Source: Sulfurovum sp.
GTDB lineage: Bacteria; Campylobacterota; Campylobacteria; Campylobacterales; Sulfurovaceae
NCBI GenBank assembly: GCA_027071315.1
Contig: JALSUP010000171.1
Coordinates: 1 to 54,898, forward strand
Reading direction: 5' to 3'
Length of the DNA stretch: 54,898 bases
The first letter of the stretch is position 1. The number at the start of each line of letters is the position of its first letter. Position numbers and translations under genes: made by a program. Below, in pieces: positions 1,619 through 17,815 of the stretch. The notes under the pieces are model-generated. The model made no database searches. It was not told the DNA's origin and saw only the letters and a list, made by a program, of their open reading frames with translations.

Positions 1619-2638
1619 ATGTTTTTGGAATTGGGACTCATTTTTGTGCTTGCTATGGTATTGATAAAGTTGATCATTGTGAATGCCTTGCGCTTGGGGC
1701 TGGTTGATGTGCCCAATGAGAGAAGTATGCATATGCGCCACCATCCGCGCGGCGCAGGCATAGGGTTTTTCCTTGCCGTTGCCCTTGTTGAACCCTTTTT
1801 TCATGCACCACTCCTCACCGAGCACGTCTATCTGCTGCTTGCCATAGCGATGATCTTTGTAGTCGGGGTGCTCGATGACCATCAGGATACGGCTCCCAAT
1901 ACCAAATTCATTGTACTCGCCATTGCCTCTGTGCTGGTCTGTCTGGACGGCATCTGCATAGAGAACGTGGGAACATTTTTTGGGGTAGAGATGATGCTGG
2001 GATGGTTCGCCCTGCCTTTTACCGTGCTGTCGATCGTGGGCGTGACCAATGCCCTCAATCTTATTGACGGCCTGGACGGCCTGGCAGGCTCGATCAGTAT
2101 TGTGATACTTTTGACCTTTTTCGTGATCGGCATGGAACATCAAGATGCGCTTATGCTTATGCTCAGCGCGGCTTTCATCGTGTCACTTTCAGCCTTTCTG
2201 ATCTACAACTGGAACCCCGCGAGTATATTTATGGGAGACAGCGGTTCTCTCGTACTGGGGTTCGTCATTGCTGTCCTGGCCAGTAAAGCGACACACTATG
2301 TTCACCCGGTCTCGTTACTGTTCATTGTCGCCGTGCCTCTGATGGATACCTTTATCGTGATGATACGACGTAAAGTACAGGGAAGATCGATGTTTTCAGC
2401 AGACAAGACACACCTGCATCACATTATCTATGGTTTTTTCAATAAAGATATCAGAATGTCCACACTTTTACTGATCGTCCTGCAGGCGATCTATTCCATT
2501 ACGGGGCTGATGATCGTCGATCATGCCAATCAGACACTGAGCCTGATACTCTTTCTGCTGAATGTCATTTTACTCTATTTTATCACGACAGGGATACTGC
2601 GGCGTCAGAGTATTATTGATGCAAAATGCAAGCAGTGA
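1619..2638 (+). CDS. Polyprenyl-phosphate sugar-1-phosphate transferase (WecA/MraY family)
   Basis: The 339-aa protein is very hydrophobic with about ten membrane segments. It carries the family signatures: VLDDHQD (the DDxxD metal/substrate motif), NALNLIDGLDGLAG, a GDSGSLVLG loop, and KTHLHH near the C-terminus. These enzymes transfer a sugar phosphate from a UDP-sugar to undecaprenyl phosphate at the inner membrane, starting O-antigen, capsule or exopolysaccharide synthesis. The HIHH-type loop fits WecA better than MraY. A TATAAT box lies at 1585-1590 and a GGGGGAGAG ribosome-binding site precedes the ATG. The Wzc-type kinase downstream supports a polysaccharide role. The exact sugar is unknown. 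Confidence 0.9.
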   Translation: MFLELGLIFVLAMVLIKLIIVNALRLGLVDVPNERSMHMRHHPRGAGIGFFLAVALVEPFFHAPLLTEHVYLLLAIAMIFVVGVLDDHQDTAPNTKFIVLAIASVLVCLDGICIENVGTFFGVEMMLGWFALPFTVLSIVGVTNALNLIDGLDGLAGSISIVILLTFFVIGMEHQDALMLMLSAAFIVSLSAFLIYNWNPASIFMGDSGSLVLGFVIAVLASKATHYVHPVSLLFIVAVPLMDTFIVMIRRKVQGRSMFSADKTHLHHIIYGFFNKDIRMSTLLLIVLQAIYSITGLMIVDHANQTLSLILFLLNVILLYFITTGILRRQSIIDAKCKQ

Positions 2639-2718
2639 TAAATGCTGAAATACCTATGGTTAATAGGCAGTTAATTTATTAATGGGTATAATAATACTTA
2701 CATAAAAACTAAGGATCA

Positions 2719-3318
2719 ATGATGAAAAAAAGTATAATGTCACTGGCTGCAGTGGTTGCCATGAGTAGTTTCGGATTTGCAGGCGGGGACGTTGCTGTAA
2801 TACCTGTAGTGGTTGAAGAAGTGGATAACAGCAGCTTCTACCTTGGTCTCGGACTTGCTGCGGTCAGTACACGTGATGCAGAAGTATCGATGGATTTTTT
2901 TAATGATAAATCCGGACAGGGCAGACTGGGGAACATTGCATTTCAGGCAGGATATAACTACAATGAATATATTGCTGTTGAAGGCAGATACAGCACAACG
3001 ATCAGCAATGAAGACTCGGTTGAAATGAGCGGTTGGAGCCTTTTTGTGAAGCCGCAGTACCCGGTGACTGAAGCGTTTAACATTTATGCACTGCTAGGAT
3101 TTGGCGGGGTGACCATGGATGCGGTCAACGAAAGTGCTGTAGATGTGGATGACAGCGGTTTCCAGTGGGGTCTGGGTGCGAGCTATGACTTTACGGAAAA
3201 TGTCTCTGTCTTCTTTGACTACACCAGCCTTGCCTCCAATATGGACGGTATCTATGTTAATGGTGCGCTGGAAGCAGATGCCGATGCCTTTACGCTGGGT
3301 GTGACGTACACATTTTAA
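2719..3318 (+). CDS. Outer-membrane beta-barrel protein (OmpA/OmpW-like small porin)
   Basis: The 199-aa protein starts with a signal peptide (KKSIMSLAAVVAMSSFGFAGG). It continues with alternating hydrophobic/polar strands (FYLGLGLAAV, IAFQAGYNYNEYIAVEGRY, FQWGLGASYDFTENVSVFFDY) and ends in TLGVTYTF, the terminal aromatic typical of Bam-assembled barrels. It resembles the generic outer-membrane beta-barrel (OMP_b-brl) family. No ligand can be predicted. A TATAAT box at 2687-2692 suggests its own promoter, and a hairpin follows at 3333. It lies between the two polysaccharide genes, but no functional link is proven. Confidence 0.8.
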   Translation: MMKKSIMSLAAVVAMSSFGFAGGDVAVIPVVVEEVDNSSFYLGLGLAAVSTRDAEVSMDFFNDKSGQGRLGNIAFQAGYNYNEYIAVEGRYSTTISNEDSVEMSGWSLFVKPQYPVTEAFNIYALLGFGGVTMDAVNESAVDVDDSGFQWGLGASYDFTENVSVFFDYTSLASNMDGIYVNGALEADADAFTLGVTYTF

Positions 3319-3332
3319 TTTTTACCCGTATT

Positions 3333-3352
3333 GACAGGGACTTCTCCCTGTC
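3333..3352 (+). terminator. Hairpin after the beta-barrel gene
   Basis: GACAGGGA and TCCCTGTC form a perfect 8-bp stem with a CTTC loop, 15 bases after the stop codon. The following bases are not a clear T run, so this may be a weak terminator or an mRNA-stabilising hairpin. Confidence 0.5.
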
Positions 3353-3407
3353 GATATGTCCTTCTTAAGATCACTACAAAACTATATTTTCAAGGTTAGA
3401 CAGATAG

Positions 3408-5705
3408 ATGAACAATACACACATTGACGAAGATGAGATAGACCTCAAAGAAGTTTTCCGAACCCTCTCCCGCTACAAATACATGATCATTTCTCTGGTC
3501 CTGCTCTTTACGATCGCTGCGGGCGTATTTGCCTATTTTAAACCCAATATTTATCAGGCGTCATCGAGCATTGAAGTGACGGCAGACAGAAGGGCAGGCA
3601 ATCCTACTGATGTACTCTCCATGGCTATGGAGGGAAGTGCGGTCAATATCGATACCGAGATAGAGATCGTCAAGTCTGTCTCTCTGGCTGAAAAAGCACT
3701 GAAGCATGTGGATATGACCCATCATTACTACACCACACGAAGATATAAAAAAGTAGAACTTTATAAAGGTTCTCCTTTTGAAGTGGGTATGCTGAAAGGC
3801 TACGGCATAGGCTTTGAACTTTTCCCGATCAGCGACAAACACTACCGTCTTTTTGTCGACAAAGCGAAAGATGAGAACAAAAATGAGTGGCATTACGACA
3901 AGATACTCAGTTATGGGAAAGAGATCGTGAATGAACATTTTCACCTCAATGTCATTAAGACAGGAGAGATGAAAGATGAGTCGTATGCCTTTACGGTGAT
4001 CGACCCTGAGCAGGCGGGGCGTGTGGTTAGGGAAAATGTTTCTGTCAGCCAGCCATCGAAATTTGCCAGCGTCCTCAGCATCAGCTATACGGACAATGTC
4101 GCTTTGCGTACGCAGGAGTTCACCAATGCCCTGGCAGATGCCTATGTGGCACGCAGCATCAATAAAAAGACAAAAGAAGCGGACATTAAACTCAAGTTCA
4201 TCAATGCACAGATGAAGCGTATTAACGAGAATTTAAAGCGTTCTGCCACGAAACTTGAAGAGTTCAAACGTAGTTCAAATACCGTGGACCTGAGTGCCAA
4301 GGCAGAGCAGATACTCAGGCAGATGAATACTTTTGAAACACAGCTTACCAATATCTCGATCCAGCAGAAGATCCTTGATACGCTCTATAAAGAGATCAAG
4401 TCCGGTGACAATATAGAATCGATCTCTCTGGACAGTATGGATCAATCGGCGGTACAGACTTCACTCTCCAGGATGATACAGGATCTTCAACAAGCCATTG
4501 TACAGAAAAGAATTCTGCGTCAGGACTACACGGAAGTCTATCCGGGTGTGAGACGTTTGAAAAATAAAATAGCCGAACTGAAGACCATCATTATTTCCAA
4601 TATTAAAAGTCTGGCAGAGAATATTACCGAGAAACAGAAACTGCTGGAGAACTCCATTGCAGAACAGCAGAAACTCTTAAATACACTGCCTGCGGACCAG
4701 AAGATCTATGGTGAACTGGAACGCCGCTTTGCCGTCAATGAAAAAATTTACTCCTACCTGCTTGAAAAACAGTCTGAAACAGCCATTGTCAAAGCTTCTA
4801 CCGTGAGCAAGAACAGCATTATAGACAGAGCATTCTACCCGGAAGCGCCCATTAAACCGAAGCGAAAACTGATCGTACTGGTGGGGATGATACTGGGGTT
4901 GATCGTGGGTATTGCACTGGCTTTCCTGAGAGCCTTTCTGGATGACAGGATCAAAACAGAAGAGGAGATAAGCCATGCGACAGGTGTGCCTGTCCTGGGC
5001 GTCATACCGCATATCAAAAAAGATGAAGATGACATTAAAGTCTTTAACGCGCCCAAATCGTCTCTTGCGGAATCGTTCCGTAACTTGCGTACGAACCTGC
5101 AGTTCATGACGAGAGAAGGCGAGGGTGCCTACGTCATCGCTGTCAGTTCCACGGTCGGAGGAGAGGGGAAGACGACGGTCTCTACCAACCTTGCCGCCAT
5201 TATGAGTATGTCTGGGAAAAAGACCGTGATCATCAACTGTGATATGAGAAAACCAACCCTGCATAAGAAATTCTCTCTTCCCAATAAAGAGGGGGTCAGC
5301 AACCTTCTTTCCAATACGGCTCTGCTTGACGAGACCATACGAAAAACAAAATATGAGAACCTGGATGTCATCACTTCCGGACCTGTGCCGCCAAACCCTT
5401 CCGAGCTGATACAGGGCAAGCATATGGAGAAACTGATCGATGCACTTAAAAAGCGTTACGATGTCATTGTCATAGATACCCCGCCGGTCGGTCTTGTGAC
5501 AGATGCCCGCGCACTGATGCATTATGCTGATGCCACAGTTTATATTATGCGCTCGGAATATTCAAAGAAAGCGTATTTTAAAATGGTCAATAAACTGGCA
5601 GAAGAGGAGATAAGCAATTTCTCAATACTCCTGAATGACTTAAAAATGGAGCATGCCGGATACGGATATTACGGTTACGGCTACTATGAAGAGGATGGCA
5701 AATAG
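3408..5705 (+). CDS. Wzc/GumC-type polysaccharide co-polymerase and tyrosine autokinase
   Basis: The 765-aa protein has the full BY-kinase layout. The N-terminus is a Wzz-type domain with a first membrane helix at about residues 25-47. A long periplasmic coiled-coil region follows, then a second membrane helix near 485-507 preceded by a proline-rich KPKRKL turn. The cytoplasmic part carries Walker A (SSTVGGEGKTT, about 580-590), Walker A' (VIINCDMRKP) and Walker B (VIVIDTPPVG). The tail is a tyrosine cluster (GYGYYGYGYY), the autophosphorylation site of this family. It controls chain length and export of capsule or exopolysaccharide. No Wza, Wzx, Wzy or other glycosyltransferase gene is next to it. 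Confidence 0.92.
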   Translation: MNNTHIDEDEIDLKEVFRTLSRYKYMIISLVLLFTIAAGVFAYFKPNIYQASSSIEVTADRRAGNPTDVLSMAMEGSAVNIDTEIEIVKSVSLAEKALKHVDMTHHYYTTRRYKKVELYKGSPFEVGMLKGYGIGFELFPISDKHYRLFVDKAKDENKNEWHYDKILSYGKEIVNEHFHLNVIKTGEMKDESYAFTVIDPEQAGRVVRENVSVSQPSKFASVLSISYTDNVALRTQEFTNALADAYVARSINKKTKEADIKLKFINAQMKRINENLKRSATKLEEFKRSSNTVDLSAKAEQILRQMNTFETQLTNISIQQKILDTLYKEIKSGDNIESISLDSMDQSAVQTSLSRMIQDLQQAIVQKRILRQDYTEVYPGVRRLKNKIAELKTIIISNIKSLAENITEKQKLLENSIAEQQKLLNTLPADQKIYGELERRFAVNEKIYSYLLEKQSETAIVKASTVSKNSIIDRAFYPEAPIKPKRKLIVLVGMILGLIVGIALAFLRAFLDDRIKTEEEISHATGVPVLGVIPHIKKDEDDIKVFNAPKSSLAESFRNLRTNLQFMTREGEGAYVIAVSSTVGGEGKTTVSTNLAAIMSMSGKKTVIINCDMRKPTLHKKFSLPNKEGVSNLLSNTALLDETIRKTKYENLDVITSGPVPPNPSELIQGKHMEKLIDALKKRYDVIVIDTPPVGLVTDARALMHYADATVYIMRSEYSKKAYFKMVNKLAEEEISNFSILLNDLKMEHAGYGYYGYGYYEEDGK

Positions 5706-11046: not shown

Positions 11047-11745
11047 TTAACGGGTATGAATACTGTAGCCCACGCCGTTGACATTGGTGATGATGTCCTC
11101 ATTGATGAGTGCGCGGAAGCGGTGTATGAGCGAGCGCAGGGTACTGTTGCTTTTCATATCGTTCCAGACATAGAGACAGATCTGTTCATTGGAGATGAAG
11201 TGGTCCCTGTTCCTGGCGAGCAGTTCGACCAGTCTCAGTTTTTTGGAAGAGAGGGGGATCTCTTTGTCCTGTTTGTAGAGGCGTCTCTCCCGGCTGTCAA
11301 AGACAAAGTCATGTTTCAGTCTGATGCGGCTGCTCTCCGCTTCTGGTGAATCCTCTGTCATCGGCTGCGCCTGCATAAGAGAAACCTGCAGGGTGGCAAG
11401 GATCTCCTGTTCTCTGTAGGGTTTCATCAGGTAGGCACAGGCTTTGGAACGGGCGGCATAGTCGACCATTTCCGGTTCTGCATAGGCGGTCAGAAAGATG
11501 ATCCTGATCTCCGGGTGTTCACGTTTGATCTCAATGGCCGCTTCACTCCCGCTCAGAACACCTTTGAGCATGATATCCATCAGGACCGCATCGGGTTTTT
11601 CTGTTCTGCACTTTTCTATGGCCGCTTCGGCCGTGTTGACAATGGCTGATACTTCATACGCTGCTTTTTGAAGCAGTGCTTTGAGATACTCCGCCGAGAG
11701 CAGATCATCTTCGACAATAAGAATGCTGTGTCTCTCCATGTTCAC
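11047..11745 (-). CDS. OmpR/PhoB-type response regulator
   Basis: The 232-aa protein has a receiver domain with the acidic pair E12-D13-D14, phosphoacceptor D57 (VLMDIMLKG), a Thr in FLTAYAE and the KP motif (LMKPYRE). A C-terminal winged-helix domain follows (ERRLYKQDKEIPLSSKKLRLVELLARN ... VNGVGYSIHTR). It binds DNA when phosphorylated. It is divergent from the histidine kinase at 11848, with about 100 bases of shared promoter region. The two therefore probably form a pair and share regulation. The target genes are unknown. Confidence 0.9.
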   Translation of the reverse strand: MNMERHSILIVEDDLLSAEYLKALLQKAAYEVSAIVNTAEAAIEKCRTEKPDAVLMDIMLKGVLSGSEAAIEIKREHPEIRIIFLTAYAEPEMVDYAARSKACAYLMKPYREQEILATLQVSLMQAQPMTEDSPEAESSRIRLKHDFVFDSRERRLYKQDKEIPLSSKKLRLVELLARNRDHFISNEQICLYVWNDMKSNSTLRSLIHRFRALINEDIITNVNGVGYSIHTR

Positions 11746-11847: not shown

Positions 11848-13026
11848 ATGCAGGTAAATAAAGTAGGGAACATGCATCTGGAAAGATTGACAAAATGGTT
11901 TAACAGCAGTGACTATAGAGATATTATGCTCAAGGGGCTCTTTCTCTCTTCTATTGTGATCTTCCTTTTTCTGGGAGTGATCTCCGGTCTGATGGGCTTC
12001 GCGCATATCTTCTGGACAAAAATGCTGGTTTCTTTTTTGAGTGCGCTCTTTTTCTACAGTTACCTCAAACAGGGAAAGATGAAGCTGCATGTTCTGCTTC
12101 TGGTACTGCTGGTCGAACTGGACAGTGCCTATGTGATGCTGGGGGAGCATGTCGACAATTTTGTGAGTATCTACCCCTATTTCATCATTTTCGGTTTTTT
12201 CTTCTTTTTTAAACTCAGAACCGCCATCTGGCTGACGCTGGCACATTTGCTCTACTGGCTTCTGGTCGGTCTCTACGGGCATATGCTTTTCCCGGATGAC
12301 CCCATCTTTACCATGGTCTCTCTGGCCAATGTTGCCGTCTGTTCGCTTATTGCGATGATCTTCGCCTATTTTTATTATATCTCCATAGAGTTGAGTTATG
12401 AGAAGCTGGCACATGCAGACCGCCAAAAAGCCATTTTACTCAAAGAGATACACCACCGCATCAAGAACAACCTGAATAAAACGTCTTCGCTGATCGGTCT
12501 GCAGATGATGCAGATGGAGCAGGAGGGTGAGGCGCAGGGCAGAGAAGTGCTGCAAAAAAGCAAGCTGCGCATAGAAGCGATGGCAATGGTCCATGATGTT
12601 CTGTATAAAAGCAATGATTTTGAAAAGATCGATTTTGAAGCCTATATCAGGAATCTTACGCAACTCATTAATCAAATGTATGGTAAAAACAGACCTGTAG
12701 AAATTCACTCCGGTGATATCTGTCTTCCCCTGGAAATAATGATGAAAATAGGTTTGATCATCAATGAACTTCTGACCAATTCCATTAAGCATGCCGGCAC
12801 AAATACCCATGAAGAGGCTGGACTTTTGATCACGCTGAACAGAGAGCATAATCACTGTGTTTTAATGTATCATCAGCAAAGCAACCAATCTGTCGATATG
12901 GATACTTTGGAAAAAAGCAATACCCTGGGCATGAAACTCATCGGACTCACCATAGAAGAGATGGACGGAGAGATGAAGATCTCTAATGGGGATGGATTGA
13001 AGTTTGTCATTCATTTTTCTTGTTAA
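11848..13026 (+). CDS. Membrane histidine kinase, HisKA_2 type
   Basis: The 392-aa protein has about six membrane helices in residues 30-180 and no large periplasmic domain. The phosphoacceptor region is LLKEIHHRIKNNLNKTSSLIGLQ, the HisKA_2 form, with the His in the HHRIKNN motif. The ATPase domain has an N box (LIINELLTNSIKHA) and a C-terminal GLKFVIHF strand, while the intervening glycine boxes are weak. HisKA_2 kinases often respond to light or stress. An alternative start is the ATG at 11872. It is divergent from and probably paired with the regulator at 11047. Confidence 0.88.
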   Translation: MQVNKVGNMHLERLTKWFNSSDYRDIMLKGLFLSSIVIFLFLGVISGLMGFAHIFWTKMLVSFLSALFFYSYLKQGKMKLHVLLLVLLVELDSAYVMLGEHVDNFVSIYPYFIIFGFFFFFKLRTAIWLTLAHLLYWLLVGLYGHMLFPDDPIFTMVSLANVAVCSLIAMIFAYFYYISIELSYEKLAHADRQKAILLKEIHHRIKNNLNKTSSLIGLQMMQMEQEGEAQGREVLQKSKLRIEAMAMVHDVLYKSNDFEKIDFEAYIRNLTQLINQMYGKNRPVEIHSGDICLPLEIMMKIGLIINELLTNSIKHAGTNTHEEAGLLITLNREHNHCVLMYHQQSNQSVDMDTLEKSNTLGMKLIGLTIEEMDGEMKISNGDGLKFVIHFSC

Positions 13027-13099
13027 AGTCTCTTTTTTTATTAATTTTTCCTTACTTTAAAAATGCAATATTTTTGAAATTCTTTAGCTATATCCTTAA

Positions 13100-13270
13100 T
13101 CATTAGTATGTTGTGACGGTACATGGAACAATGAAGAGAAGGAAGAGAACGGTATTAATTCTCCTTACCAATGGGGTGAAAATCCATCATGCATTGGTAA
13201 AGAAAGGTACAGATTGAAGTATTATCCAAAATTCAGGAAAATTCCCCTAAAAATGATAATAGCAGATTAG
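13100..13270 (+). pseudogene. Fragment resembling a DUF2235 (Tle-type phospholipase) N-terminus
   Basis: This open stretch has no start codon. It translates to SLVCCDGTWNNEEKEENGINSPYQ, very like the conserved N-terminal strand of DUF2235 alpha/beta hydrolases (vCCDGTWN...), and then loses similarity and ends at TAG. A stop lies just upstream of the motif. It is therefore a short gene relic, not a functional gene. It is bracketed by near-identical 19-base direct repeats (AAATGCAA-type, 13061-13079 and 13271-13289). The remaining bases of 13027-13359 hold an AT-rich promoter-like region for the next gene. Confidence 0.4.
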
Positions 13271-13359
13271 AAATGCAACATTTTTGCAACAATATTATAT
13301 TAAAATATATTAATCCATCATAAAAGATGGAAATTAAAATATAGTATAAGGAGTATAAG

Positions 13360-13824
13360 ATGGCTGATACAAAAAAAAGATTTACATTAGGGAATACCAC
13401 TGTAAATTTAGGTGAAATAGAAAAAACGGGTGGATTGATTGGATGTAGAGTATATAATACGTATCCATATTGTGCAAATCAAATAACACGATATGAGATA
13501 CCAGACATTACACAATTATGTAGATATCATACAATGGATATAACAATAACAGGGTGTCATGGTGTTACACTACCACGGACAACAACTTGGATGACTGACC
13601 GAATTCGAACAGTAGAACTTACACCACAACTAAGAATAGAAGAAATAGCAGGACTGAAAGAACAGCTAAAAGAAGATTTACAAGCTGTTGAAGCACATGA
13701 AGCAGTTGTGCGAAGTGCAGAAGTTCCACAAACGTTGGAAGAGATGAATCTTGTAGAGGAAAAATTAAAAGGCTCGTTGGCAGAAGTGCAAAAATTAAAA
13801 GAAGCATTAGCAGCACAAAAGTAA
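13360..13824 (+). CDS. Putative RiPP (lanthipeptide-like) precursor or substrate protein
   Basis: The 154-aa protein is not recognised by name. Residues 1-85 are rich in Thr and hold four cysteines (C29, C38, C54, C66), with segments such as CANQITRYEIPD and TITGCHGVTLPRTTTW. Residues 86-154 are highly charged, without Cys, and predicted helical/coiled-coil (VEEKLKGSLAEVQKLKEALA). It is followed after 29 bases by the lyase-like gene and then the kinase-LanC gene, so it is the best candidate substrate. The order is reversed from a normal leader-core peptide. It might therefore use a C-terminal follower, or it may be a scaffold. An AAGGAG ribosome-binding site is present. Confidence 0.5.
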   Translation: MADTKKRFTLGNTTVNLGEIEKTGGLIGCRVYNTYPYCANQITRYEIPDITQLCRYHTMDITITGCHGVTLPRTTTWMTDRIRTVELTPQLRIEEIAGLKEQLKEDLQAVEAHEAVVRSAEVPQTLEEMNLVEEKLKGSLAEVQKLKEALAAQK

Positions 13825-13853
13825 CAAATAGACATCTAAAAGGATGATATGTA

Positions 13854-15011
13854 ATGGTATCTAAAAATGATAGAGAGTATTTGAAAACAAGATATTTTAG
13901 GCTCTCTTCAGAGTATAGTTTAGTACCTTATAATAGGATAGAACAAAAACTTTATGCTCAAGTTGCAAGATATAAAATAAATGAGGATGAGGTTTTTGGT
14001 ATTCTGTATCATGAAAAGGATCATTCTTTTACTGTGATAGATCAAGATACAGCTCTATTGTTGTACACGATGAAAGAAGTGGGAAAACTACCTCATTATA
14101 TTCTGAATAATTGGGATGCAAGTATTGTGGCTGAATTAAAATTTATGTTGGGAAGAGGGGTTTTAGAACTTGAAATCTCTCACAAACATAAAGACTTTAT
14201 AAGTGGTACTGAGGCTCTAAAATTATTACAAAATACAGATAATTTTAGTATATCTGATATAAATAAAGATGCTATTTTTCACGCTATGAGCATGCTTCCT
14301 ACAGACTATATGACACTGAGTAGTATACTTTACTTATTTAATCGTAAACCAGTTTCTGCTTCTCTTAGTAAAACGCTATCCAATGCAAATAGTGTAAAAC
14401 AATTTTTGGGACTAAATGCTCATACAGCAAAAACAAAAAAAAATTCTACACAATGGACTATGCTACAAGATACAGAAGGGTGGATTGTTTTTCAAAGTAA
14501 AAAAGATTTTCAAAAGCCTAAACTAATATCAAATCAAACATATAAACTTTATATGAGTCCTAATTCATTAGATATATTTTCTAAAATCTTTTTTGATGTA
14601 GCAACACTATTATATAATTCAAAGGCATTCCAATTTAAAATAGGAAATGATGCTTTTGGATTGCAAAGACCTGATAAATGGGTAGCATATTTTTATGATA
14701 AAGCATCATTATTTGAGGCTATTGGATTACTAGAGGATAAAATGGGTGATATTTCTGCTCAAGAAGTACCTTTTAGCTGCCATAGTGATGTAAAATGGTT
14801 GAGTTGGGGGAAAGACCCTCAACAGTATGAATCAACAAGTTGGCGTTGGCTTATATGTAGCGAAATAGCACATGCAATTTTAGATGTTCCTGCACACGAA
14901 TTACCTAAGATATTATCTATGCAAGAAATTGAGACAACAGTTTGGCCATATATTAAAATACGACTAGAAAGAGAAGGTATTAATGCTGAAACGTTAGAAC
15001 CTATGGAATAA
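13854..15011 (+). CDS. Putative stand-alone phosphothreonine/serine lyase of a lanthipeptide locus
   Basis: The 385-aa protein has no name that I recognise with certainty. Residues 229-310 follow the pattern of the lyase domain in class III/IV synthetases (OspF/SpvC fold). These are YKLYMSP (K231, family K-x-H; here the His is Tyr233), then about 28 residues later FQFKIG (K262, expected general base), then RPDKWVAYFYD (R272), then VPFSCHSDVKWLSWGKDP. Residues 50-110 look like a PqqD-type winged helix (FTVIDQDTALLLYTM ... FMLGRGVLELE). It would remove phosphate from phospho-Ser/Thr to give dehydro residues. The proposal rests on motifs only. The gene is AT-rich like its neighbours. Confidence 0.45.
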   Translation: MVSKNDREYLKTRYFRLSSEYSLVPYNRIEQKLYAQVARYKINEDEVFGILYHEKDHSFTVIDQDTALLLYTMKEVGKLPHYILNNWDASIVAELKFMLGRGVLELEISHKHKDFISGTEALKLLQNTDNFSISDINKDAIFHAMSMLPTDYMTLSSILYLFNRKPVSASLSKTLSNANSVKQFLGLNAHTAKTKKNSTQWTMLQDTEGWIVFQSKKDFQKPKLISNQTYKLYMSPNSLDIFSKIFFDVATLLYNSKAFQFKIGNDAFGLQRPDKWVAYFYDKASLFEAIGLLEDKMGDISAQEVPFSCHSDVKWLSWGKDPQQYESTSWRWLICSEIAHAILDVPAHELPKILSMQEIETTVWPYIKIRLEREGINAETLEPME

Positions 15012-15026
15012 AGGAAATTAAATACG

Positions 15027-17408
15027 ATGGAACAATCAACATTTCAAGAATTAGTAAAAGGTGAATTGGTTCTTCCTAAAGAAGTGACGATAATAGATAG
15101 TGACACTTTATCAGAAGATGTAAAGAAAAAATTAGAAGTTGAGCATGGAGATAAACTACTGTCAAAAAGTTTTGCTAGGGAAACAACAAAAGTGATTAAT
15201 AGTGAATTTGCTGAAATACTTTCTGTATTTAAAACACCCAAAAGCTTAATTACTGTTGTACGAGAATATGCCAAAGAACATCAAGAGAATTCAGAAGAAT
15301 TACTCGATAGTTTATTTGAACCAATGATGGATATCATTCAAAAAGGTTTTTTGGTATCCAAAGAGACTATGCAAGAGGAGAATATATCGTTAATAACTAA
15401 TGATTTTTTTCAAGACTATAAAATATTATACGAGGTGCATCATACGGAAGATACAGAATTGTATCTTGCACAAGATAAAAATGATAGATTTGTAGCATTG
15501 AAAATTGGTGTTGCAAAAAACGTTAAAATTATAAAGTCTATGCTGGAACATGAAGTGGCTATTTTAAAAAAACTATCTGGAAAAGTGACTCCTGCGTATA
15601 TCGAGAGTAATCTTGAGAATAAACCTCCCTATATTGTGACAAAATGGATTCATGGTGTTTCTGCAATGCAATATGCTACTACACTTCGTTTAGAACATAA
15701 TGATAAGGCACTCATGTCATTATTGGATCATATTATTCAAGCCTATGCACAACTTCATAAAGAAGGGTGGTTACACCAAGATATTCATCCTGGAAACATT
15801 ATGTGCGATAAAGATGGAAATGTTACATTAATTGACTTTGGTTTGGCACAAAAGATTGATTATCCCTATCAAATCAGAGCAGGAGTTAATTTTTATATGG
15901 CACCCGAATCAATAGAAGTAAGTAATCTAGAAAAATCTAACTCTAATACTTTAAGTGAACAATATTCTATAGCTGCAGTACTTTATGAACTGTTTACTGG
16001 GGTACAGTATTGTAATTTTAGTTTAAGAACTGAAACAATGTTTGAACAAGTAAAAACAGAAACTCCAAGAAAGTTTGAATCATTGGATAAACAGTCTTTT
16101 TCTGCTTTAGAAAAAGTTTTTGCAAAAGCACTAGCAAAAAAACCGAAAGATAGATTTGATAATTTGAACCAAATGCATGATGCTATCCAAAATATTCAAT
16201 TTCCTAAACTACAATACCCACAAAAAGGGGATGATTTTGTATCATTAAGAAAAAATGTTGTTACACAACTGTTGAAACAATTTGATGTAACAGAACCATT
16301 ATATAATAATGGCTTACCACATGGACCATTGTCAAGTATTTATTATGGAGCAGCAGGAATTGCTTATGCTTTATATCGATTTTCCCTTGTATATGATAGT
16401 GCTTATTATTTATCATTAGCAGAGAAATGGTTACAAAAAGCTTTTCTTTATCTGGAAGATACTCAATCATTTTCTAACCCTTCATTTGAAATTGAAAATG
16501 ATCCAGTCACACAATATTCTACTTTTAATCATCTTCCTGGTCTCTATGGAGTACAAGCTATTATAAGTTATGCAAAAGGAGATTTTTTTAAATTCAACGA
16601 ATCTATTGTAGATATTCTCAAATTATCAGATACAAGTGAAGAAAATAATGATTTAACATTGGATGGTTTAGGTATTGCTTTATTGTTAATAAATATAGTT
16701 GAGTTGGATAATAATAGTTATATTGATAAAGAATTACAAAAAAAATTAGAAAAAAGAGTAGAAAAAATTCTTACGCCCATTCTGAAAAGAAAAGGTCTTC
16801 TTCAACAGTTTACTTTAGAACCTAGCGTGACAAATTTAGGTATTGCACATGGTATAGGAGGTAATTTATATATACTTTTAAGATGGTTTAATTATAAAAA
16901 AATTACATTACAGAAGCAATTTTTTGATCAACTTAATTTTGTAATTCAAAAAGAAATACCACAAGGATGTGGCGTATGTATTCCTTGGCAAACGAAAGAG
17001 GGTGAGAACGTATTTCATACTATGTCTGGATGGTGTAATGGATCTGCAGGTATCCTTATGCTTTTATGTGAGGTAGCAAAAGTAAGTAATCAAGAAAAAT
17101 ATTTAAATGATGCAGAACAATTTGCTTGGAATTGTTGGGAAGATATGGCTACTGTGCCCAATCTTTGTTGTGGTTTGGCTGGACGTGCTTATGCATTATC
17201 ATCTTATAGTCAAGCTACAAATAACAATGTTTGGCATGAGCGTGCATTGAAGCTTATGTCTCAGGCTATTGAACAAGGTGAACTTATTGATACAGAACAA
17301 ATGCCTATGCATAGTTTATATAAAGGTCAATTAGGTGTAGCCCTAGCCTTCACTGAAATTGCAACAAATAAAGCATATTCAATGCCATTTTTTGGAAGAG
17401 AAAATTGA
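15027..17408 (+). CDS. PqqD-like/kinase/LanC fusion: putative lanthipeptide synthetase
   Basis: The 793-aa protein has three parts. Residues about 45-115 resemble a PqqD/RRE winged helix (VINSEFAEILSVFKTPKSLITVVREYA). Residues about 128-395 are a Ser/Thr kinase with HQDIHPGN (D252) and IDFGLA (D270). Residues about 410-790 are a LanC-type cyclase with GAAGIAYAL (near 441), HGIGGNLY, WCNGSAG (C670), NLCCGLAG (C714, C715) and HSLYKGQLGVALAF. The zinc ligands would be three cysteines, as in promiscuous ProcM-type cyclases, rather than Cys-Cys-His. No lyase domain is fused, and the preceding gene may supply it. No transporter or protease follows. Confidence 0.8.
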   Translation: MEQSTFQELVKGELVLPKEVTIIDSDTLSEDVKKKLEVEHGDKLLSKSFARETTKVINSEFAEILSVFKTPKSLITVVREYAKEHQENSEELLDSLFEPMMDIIQKGFLVSKETMQEENISLITNDFFQDYKILYEVHHTEDTELYLAQDKNDRFVALKIGVAKNVKIIKSMLEHEVAILKKLSGKVTPAYIESNLENKPPYIVTKWIHGVSAMQYATTLRLEHNDKALMSLLDHIIQAYAQLHKEGWLHQDIHPGNIMCDKDGNVTLIDFGLAQKIDYPYQIRAGVNFYMAPESIEVSNLEKSNSNTLSEQYSIAAVLYELFTGVQYCNFSLRTETMFEQVKTETPRKFESLDKQSFSALEKVFAKALAKKPKDRFDNLNQMHDAIQNIQFPKLQYPQKGDDFVSLRKNVVTQLLKQFDVTEPLYNNGLPHGPLSSIYYGAAGIAYALYRFSLVYDSAYYLSLAEKWLQKAFLYLEDTQSFSNPSFEIENDPVTQYSTFNHLPGLYGVQAIISYAKGDFFKFNESIVDILKLSDTSEENNDLTLDGLGIALLLINIVELDNNSYIDKELQKKLEKRVEKILTPILKRKGLLQQFTLEPSVTNLGIAHGIGGNLYILLRWFNYKKITLQKQFFDQLNFVIQKEIPQGCGVCIPWQTKEGENVFHTMSGWCNGSAGILMLLCEVAKVSNQEKYLNDAEQFAWNCWEDMATVPNLCCGLAGRAYALSSYSQATNNNVWHERALKLMSQAIEQGELIDTEQMPMHSLYKGQLGVALAFTEIATNKAYSMPFFGREN

Positions 17409-17499
17409 AACTAAAAGTTTCGTAATTGTGGGAGAGACTGTAAAGAGGGAGTGTTAAAAATTCCGTGTCAGTCTGATAAAATACTATCAAGGACTGATA

Positions 17500-17815
17500 A
17501 TGAAAGAAGAAATAGAGTTTGATTTCGATGAGATACTCGACAAATTTAGAAGCGGTAAAAAACTTACAGGTATAGGTGGTCTTTTAGAGCCACTTATTAA
17601 ACAACTTACAGAAGCTGCACTGGAAGCAGAAGTAGAATCACATATCGCTAATGATGGACTTTAAGGTACAAGAAATAGACGTAATGGTTCTAATAAAAAA
17701 ACCATAAAAAGTACAGTGATGGTATTTTTGAACTAGAAACTCCAAGAGACCGAAATGGTACCTTCGAACCTCAGATTGTAAAAAAAACACCAAACCACTA
17801 TTAGTAAACCAAACA
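17500..17815 (+). pseudogene. Decayed IS256-family transposase
   Basis: ATG at 17500 opens a 54-codon frame (KEEIEFDFDEILDKFRSGKKL ... ALEAEVESHIANDGL) that is an IS256-family N-terminus. It stops in frame at 17662. Similarity resumes as GTRNRRNGSNKKTIKST, shifts frame to FELETPRDRNGTFEPQIVKK, and shifts again in an A8 run to KHQTTIS, after which it ends. Only about a quarter of a normal ~400-aa transposase remains. The preceding 17430-17480 (GTGTTAAAAATTCCGTGTC) looks like an IS256 terminal repeat. No further gene is visible up to 17904. Confidence 0.85.

Follow-up and report, generated by a model that had tools for sequence, protein, structure and literature searches.

A putative two-protein lanthipeptide synthetase with a separate HopA1-fold lyase in Sulfurovum sp., most likely of a new class

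Lanthipeptide classes are defined by how the domains for dehydration and cyclisation are combined. In classes III and IV (LanKC/LanL) a Ser/Thr kinase is joined to a C-terminal LanC cyclase and, in the same chain, to a lyase of the OspF superfamily. Class V systems (CaoK/CaoY, LxmK/LxmY) place a kinase of the APH type (LanK) and a HopA1-fold lyase (LanY) on separate chains and have a separate LanX-type cyclase instead of a fused LanC. Class VI LanKCb, confined to streptococci, joins its kinase to truncated lyase and cyclase domains within a single synthetase (He et al. 2023, PMC10676316). A recognition element for precursors of ribosomally synthesized and post-translationally modified peptides (RiPP recognition element, RRE) is not identifiable in any of the enzymes of classes II to V (PMC10604976). 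We analysed contig JALSUP010000171.1 of Sulfurovum sp. (the window, 54,898 nucleotides at its full length), where three genes at positions 13360-17408 very probably encode, judging from sequence comparison and structure models, a horizontally acquired two-protein lanthipeptide synthetase together with its own substrate.

The three open reading frames (ORFs) are arranged head to tail on the forward strand, separated by 29 and 15 nucleotides. The evidence for each assignment is given in brackets:

13360..13824, + strand, putative precursor peptide of 154 aa (ORF call, follower profile, blastp)
13378..13410, + strand, leader-like motif RFTLGNTTVNL, aa 7-17, candidate RRE-binding strand (aligned with F-x-x-K-D-L-x-V-x-I of other precursors)
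13426..13614, + strand, predicted core region, about aa 23-85 (Cys/Thr content and spacing)
13621..13821, + strand, follower, aa 88-154, with two predicted amphipathic helices, LKEQLKEDLQAVEAHEA ... LVEEKLKGSLAEVQKLKEAL (profile, blastp)
13854..15011, + strand, putative stand-alone phosphoSer/Thr lyase of 385 aa (model fold, conserved residues, profile comparison)
13875..14228, + strand, N-terminal RRE-like domain of the lyase, aa 8-125 (hhalign, secondary-structure order)
14436..15011, + strand, OspF/SpvC/HopA1-fold lyase domain (conservation, model fold, hhalign)
15027..17408, + strand, RRE-kinase-LanC fusion of 793 aa (Pfam, NCBIfam, homologue alignment)
15063..15380, + strand, N-terminal PqqD-like RRE domain of the fusion, about aa 13-118 (model, PDB fold matches)
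15408..16208, + strand, Ser/Thr protein kinase domain, about aa 128-394 (Pfam, alignment, PDB search)
16335..17381, + strand, LanC cyclase domain (Pfam, alignment)

The initial annotation had read the locus as substrate, separate lyase and RRE-kinase-LanC protein, and independent evidence from folds, profiles and gene neighbourhoods agrees with it. Its description of the 793-aa protein, PqqD-like, Ser/Thr kinase and LanC parts without the lyase domain of classes III and IV, was borne out by Pfam and by the model fold. Pfam matches were obtained to Pkinase (PF00069, aa 149-378, E=5.7e-25) and LANC_like (aa 437-785, E=4.7e-38), besides one to the APH family (PF01636) with E=6.8e-7 over 45 aa; the scores suggest that the kinases of these fusions stand outside the APH/LanK family. 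The kinase motifs are intact (K159, E176, H250-x-D252, N257, D270-F-G), and the catalytic residues are invariant across 16 aligned fusions. The LanC site comprises H608 and three cysteines at the zinc-ligand positions (C670, C714 and C715), all retained in 15 of the 16. In Sphingomonas parva (locus L022, 9156-11711) the LanC part of the fusion lacks all zinc cysteines and the active-site histidine, and the adjacent precursor has one Cys, possibly a dehydration-only branch by its sequence.

The first 135 residues of the fusion were modelled from 15 homologues with a mean predicted local distance difference test (pLDDT) of 88. The model has the RRE order of three beta strands followed by three helices, and it matched PqqD (5sxy), TbiB1 (5v1v) and LasB1 (6jx3) in the PDB with target-normalised template modelling scores (TMt) of 0.72, 0.74 and 0.73, next to the RREs of TruD, MibB, ThcOx and TigE. 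These matches support a PqqD-like RRE, predicted to bind leader or follower. The RRE thus occupies the place that the lyase has in LanKC and LanL. No lyase domain was found in the 793-aa chain, for which a PDB search returned only kinases and LanC proteins. The NCBIfam equivalogs for class III LanKC and class IV LanL scored 107.7 and 132.2 bits, respectively, with cut-offs of 575 or 650 bits; the best full-length match was LanL, for which 650 bits are set.

The 385-aa protein matched no Pfam family below E=1, gave no usable NCBIfam match and no PDB sequence-profile match, therefore fold and profile-profile comparison were needed. Modelling, a structure check proposed in the initial annotation, yielded a model with a pLDDT of 87 and a fold related to OspF/SpvC. 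The top PDB match was the class V lyase LxmY (9dk2/9dk3, E=9.6e-8), followed by HopA1 (4rsx, E=1.4e-7; 4rsw, E=6.3e-6) and the lyase domain of the class III synthetase SalKC (E=7.7e-4); weaker matches were VirA/SpvC, OspF and ThurKC (E 1e-3 to 4e-3), and also PneKC. The assignment as an OspF/SpvC-type lyase thus stood for the fold, but among solved structures LxmY is a closer relative than any class III/IV domain. A comparison that does not depend on the model, between the profile of the C-terminal domain and actinobacterial proteins of the HopA1 family (PF17914), reached an hhalign probability of 95 % (P=2.8e-8); seven control profiles reached at most 0.3 %. The PF17914 model itself had no match in the window lyase and a weak match in only two of 19 homologues (best E 0.029); nine producer genomes searched with it gave no matches, hence the lyase family is not reached by this model.

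Candidate catalytic residues are K231, Y233, K262, R272, Y279, D321 and R331. All of them, as well as D274 and K275, are identical in 19 aligned lyases, and P273 is nearly so. The motifs read by eye in the initial annotation, K231-x-Y233, F261-K262 and R272-P-D-K275, are therefore real; the position given there as His or Tyr is conserved, but always Tyr and never His in this family. Corresponding residues by spacing are K104, H106, K136, R148, D201 and R213 in SpvC and R187, K219, R229 and Y236 in CaoY (PMC9486802, PMC10604976); the spacing of K262-R272-Y279 equals that of K219-R229-Y236 in the class V enzyme CaoY. At the position of SpvC K104 the family has Lys, as OspF and LanKC, whereas class V and HopA1-type proteins have Arg (PMC9486802). 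At that of H106 it has Tyr, as in the HopA1-type proteins examined. The fold, the catalytic Lys pair and the phosphate-binding Arg of the OspF/SpvC/HopA1 superfamily are present. From the phosphothreonine lyases of that superfamily, with which it shares fold and catalytic positions, the protein differs by its linkage to a partner in biosynthesis, to a precursor gene as well wherever the flank was covered, and by an additional N-terminal domain.

This N-terminal domain is absent from the reading of the 385-aa protein in the initial annotation. Residues 1-128 aligned with the RRE of the fusion over 94 columns (hhalign probability 64-71 %, P=4-7e-5), and 18 comparisons of non-matching segments gave at most 3.2 %. 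Strands and helices follow one another in the same order in the models of the lyase N-terminus and the fusion RRE. The lyase thus likely carries a divergent RRE-like domain, for which the case is weaker than for the fusion. In Cupriavidus, an RRE domain like that of the fusion also precedes a 2OG-Fe(II) oxygenase, so that it acts like a mobile module for recognition.

The precursors matched no known family, and a plasmid search with the 154-aa protein as query had no matches. Common to the precursors of these loci are the motif F-x-x-[KR]-[DE]-L-x-[VI]-x-[IV] at the N-terminus, a core of Cys, Ser and Thr, and a charged helical C-terminus. A follower profile built without the window sequence recovered the 154-aa protein with E=3.4e-9 among 5,658 ORFs, and it also recovered two precursors of locus L008 left out of its construction. 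By blastp, the 154-aa protein is 35 % identical over 49 aa (E=5e-6) to the follower of the L010 precursor. A similarity to an adhesin fragment (Cbp1, E=0.0098, cut-off 90 bits) was rejected as helical low-complexity similarity. The precursors contain 3 to about 29 Cys. Several are large or composite: that of Paenibacillus peoriae (L003, 7026-7778) is a polyprotein in which leader-like motif (MFRTVDLAANV), core (NDCGITCLASCG) and follower helix recur as three near-identical units; L008, a metagenome-assembled genome (MAG) of Armatimonadota, has two adjacent and unusually large candidate precursors of about 290-305 aa (2258-3178 and 3195-4058), one with 29 Cys; and in L014 (7733-8470), on a contig labelled Nitrososphaerales archaeon, leader and follower units occur in tandem. 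The archaeal label may reflect transfer or a binning error.

In the window core, 13 Thr and no Ser accompany four cysteines, each with a Thr at +4 or +5 (C29-T34, C38-T43, C54-T58, C66-T70). When each repeated Cys context entered the count a single time, 97 of the 136 Cys in 17 cores had a Ser or Thr at +3 or +4 downstream (42.8 expected, z 10.7), and 16 of the 17 cores were above expectation. The usual arrangement, Ser/Thr three to four residues upstream of Cys, was not enriched (38 versus 42.6 expected). Some cores are repetitive; the effect persists in the non-repetitive ones. This placement statistically predicts reversed rings, i.e. probably most rings of the family have the Cys N-terminal to the dehydro-residue. 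Cys-first rings are rare among known lanthipeptides (cinnamycin type).

A genome-neighbourhood survey, likewise proposed in the initial annotation, established that the pairing of lyase and fusion is conserved in 27 loci, thus the arrangement is not a one-off gene break. With tblastn, pairs were found on plasmids of P. peoriae and Cupriavidus oxalaticus. In a single scan, 84,980 species genomes yielded 18 additional lyase loci, which belong to Acidobacteriota, Armatimonadota, Eremiobacterota, Bacteroidota, Actinomycetota, Elusimicrobiota, Verrucomicrobiota, Pseudomonadota and one MAG labelled archaeal. Among 396 genomes of the phylum of locus L006, six had the lyase, one of them already known; six further acidobacterial loci likewise pair lyase and fusion. 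Besides the window, 26 loci from about nine other phyla and one archaeal MAG contig have the pair. The fusion adjoins the lyase or is one gene away (Cupriavidus) in all of the about 27 loci, none of which has a lyase without a fusion partner. Neither a transporter nor a protease gene is present within the three-gene unit, and none is conserved in the sampled flanks of the homologues; export by a shared gene of the neighbourhood was rejected on that ground. In Cupriavidus (L004, 4277-7441; L013, 5249-8416) the unit has as its neighbour a complete LanB dehydratase of the class I type (PF04738 and PF14028), bringing two dehydration chemistries together, with a Cupin_8 protein and the oxygenase with the fusion-type RRE (L013, 9927-11060) as further neighbours. 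A further arrangement of lyase and LanC parts was observed in a Micromonosporaceae-family genome (L043, 328-3356), a HopA1-family (PF17914) protein immediately followed by a separate LanC-like protein.

In the window, the GC content drops to about 31 % over 13000-17500, compared with 47-52 % around it. In six congeners recR lies next to a DHH gene or close to it (6-181 nucleotides apart; in one, 2.4 kb of unrelated DNA intervenes), and both the peptide genes and a two-component pair are missing between them. The following features flank the peptide genes:

11047..11745, - strand, response regulator (like the peptide genes, missing from the recR-DHH site in congeners)
11848..13026, + strand, HisKA_2 histidine kinase (likewise missing from that site in congeners)
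17500..17733, + strand, broken remnant of an IS256-family transposase at the insertion's right-hand edge (tblastn)

Pfam had no match on the transposase remnant, whose IS256 identity derives from tblastn. The response regulator is divergent; together with the histidine kinase it may regulate the peptide genes or represent a separate insertion. One congener (L038, 8968-11401) has a different 2.4-kb insert at the same site with an ORF resembling a REP-type transposase by eye, and the recR-DHH site may be an insertion hot spot. In the phylum of the window, the lyase was detected in one of 397 genomes and a LanC domain in one of 347, in both cases the window's own, so that the rarity of RiPP loci in this phylum, as remarked in the initial annotation, holds for lanthipeptides. 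Horizontal transfer is the best explanation for the window locus.

The remark that the arrangement fits no class exactly holds against the definitions of classes I to VI (PMC10604976, PMC9486802, PMC10676316). In the order of kinase and LanC and in its zinc-site LanC the fusion resembles LanL, which is also its best full-length NCBIfam match, and the Lys at the SpvC K104 position is that of OspF and LanKC; from these one could propose a class III/IV-like system whose lyase domain split off and came to be encoded separately, which would make it a known class in rearranged form. We hold this to be unlikely: the LanL score is far below its cut-off, the lyase is nearest to LxmY/HopA1 and not to the LanKC lyases, both proteins have RRE-like N-termini, not identifiable in classes II-V, and the precursors match no known family. 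The three zinc-site cysteines of the LanC also differ from class III, in which LanC is metal-free. A lyase related to LanY/LxmY in structure and profile, on a chain separate from the kinase, would fit a variant of class V whose kinase acquired a LanC domain. This is a distinctly poorer prospect, as the kinase belongs to PF00069 and not to the APH-type LanK, LanC is fused, RREs are present, no LanX was seen, the precursors are unrelated and the K104 position has Lys instead of Arg. Class VI likewise rearranges kinase, lyase and cyclase in an unusual way, whereas lyase and LanC are here of full length and on two chains. A new class of lanthipeptide synthetase is thus most likely, going by the sequences and models, and we incline to a seventh class spread over about ten phyla, composed of an RRE-kinase-LanC fusion and an RRE-bearing HopA1-fold lyase, both directed by one and the same precursor motif, with mostly reversed rings and large, follower-bearing precursors.

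Several points count against a working synthetase of this kind. The cluster is minimal and leaves the route of maturation and export unexplained. The query-normalised TM score of the lyase model is 0.36, since the alignment covers no more than about half of the protein. For the fusion RRE, Foldseek reached an E-value of 3.5e-3 at best, modest but normal for so small a fold. The core boundaries in the spacing test were drawn by eye, and the window leader motif is degenerate, with GNTT where others have KDLM. The loss of zinc ligands in S. parva means that the unit can exist without cyclisation, and one might suppose that the enzymes only dehydrate or phosphorylate, LanC being idle or structural and the product no lanthipeptide. 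The zinc cysteines and H608 retained in nearly all fusions, the Cys-rich cores and their non-random Cys-to-Ser/Thr spacing render this highly improbable. The IS256 remnant, the low GC content, the degenerate leader motif and the sole occurrence in the phylum could also mark the window copy as a dying or chimeric fragment rather than a working locus of the genome. We give this little credence, since all three ORFs are intact with all invariant residues; the flanking genes adjoin each other in congeners, therefore the insertion site is real and an assembly chimera unlikely.

For the two-protein synthetase, LanC with zinc ligands and catalytic His is present, as are kinase and lyase by homology, and a sequence of steps can be proposed. 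The RREs, one per enzyme, would hold the N-terminal strand motif of the precursor, its helical follower, or both. The Ser/Thr kinase domain of the fusion, with its intact motifs, would phosphorylate core Thr, and the 385-aa lyase would beta-eliminate the phosphate to yield dehydrobutyrine, with K231, Y233, K262, R272, D321 and R331 in the presumed roles of their SpvC counterparts listed above. Finally, LanC may add the four Cys thiols at its three-Cys zinc site to form methyllanthionine rings. An RRE type common to both enzymes would thereby stand in for the physical fusion by which classes III and IV couple their lyase to the kinase.

No description of the arrangement was found in open full-text papers, the literature covered here, and an earlier description elsewhere is possible. 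The main text of a 2025 survey of RREs has no mention of kinase, HopA1 or lyase (PMC12710340). Neither the lyase nor the precursor family has a Pfam or NCBIfam model, therefore the system escapes family searches. This combination of dehydration and cyclisation domains is widespread. It links a HopA1-type lyase, as in class V, with the kinase-LanC architecture of classes III and IV and bears on the origin of both. For ring formation it provides a natural system of two components directed by RREs, with a predicted reversed ring direction.

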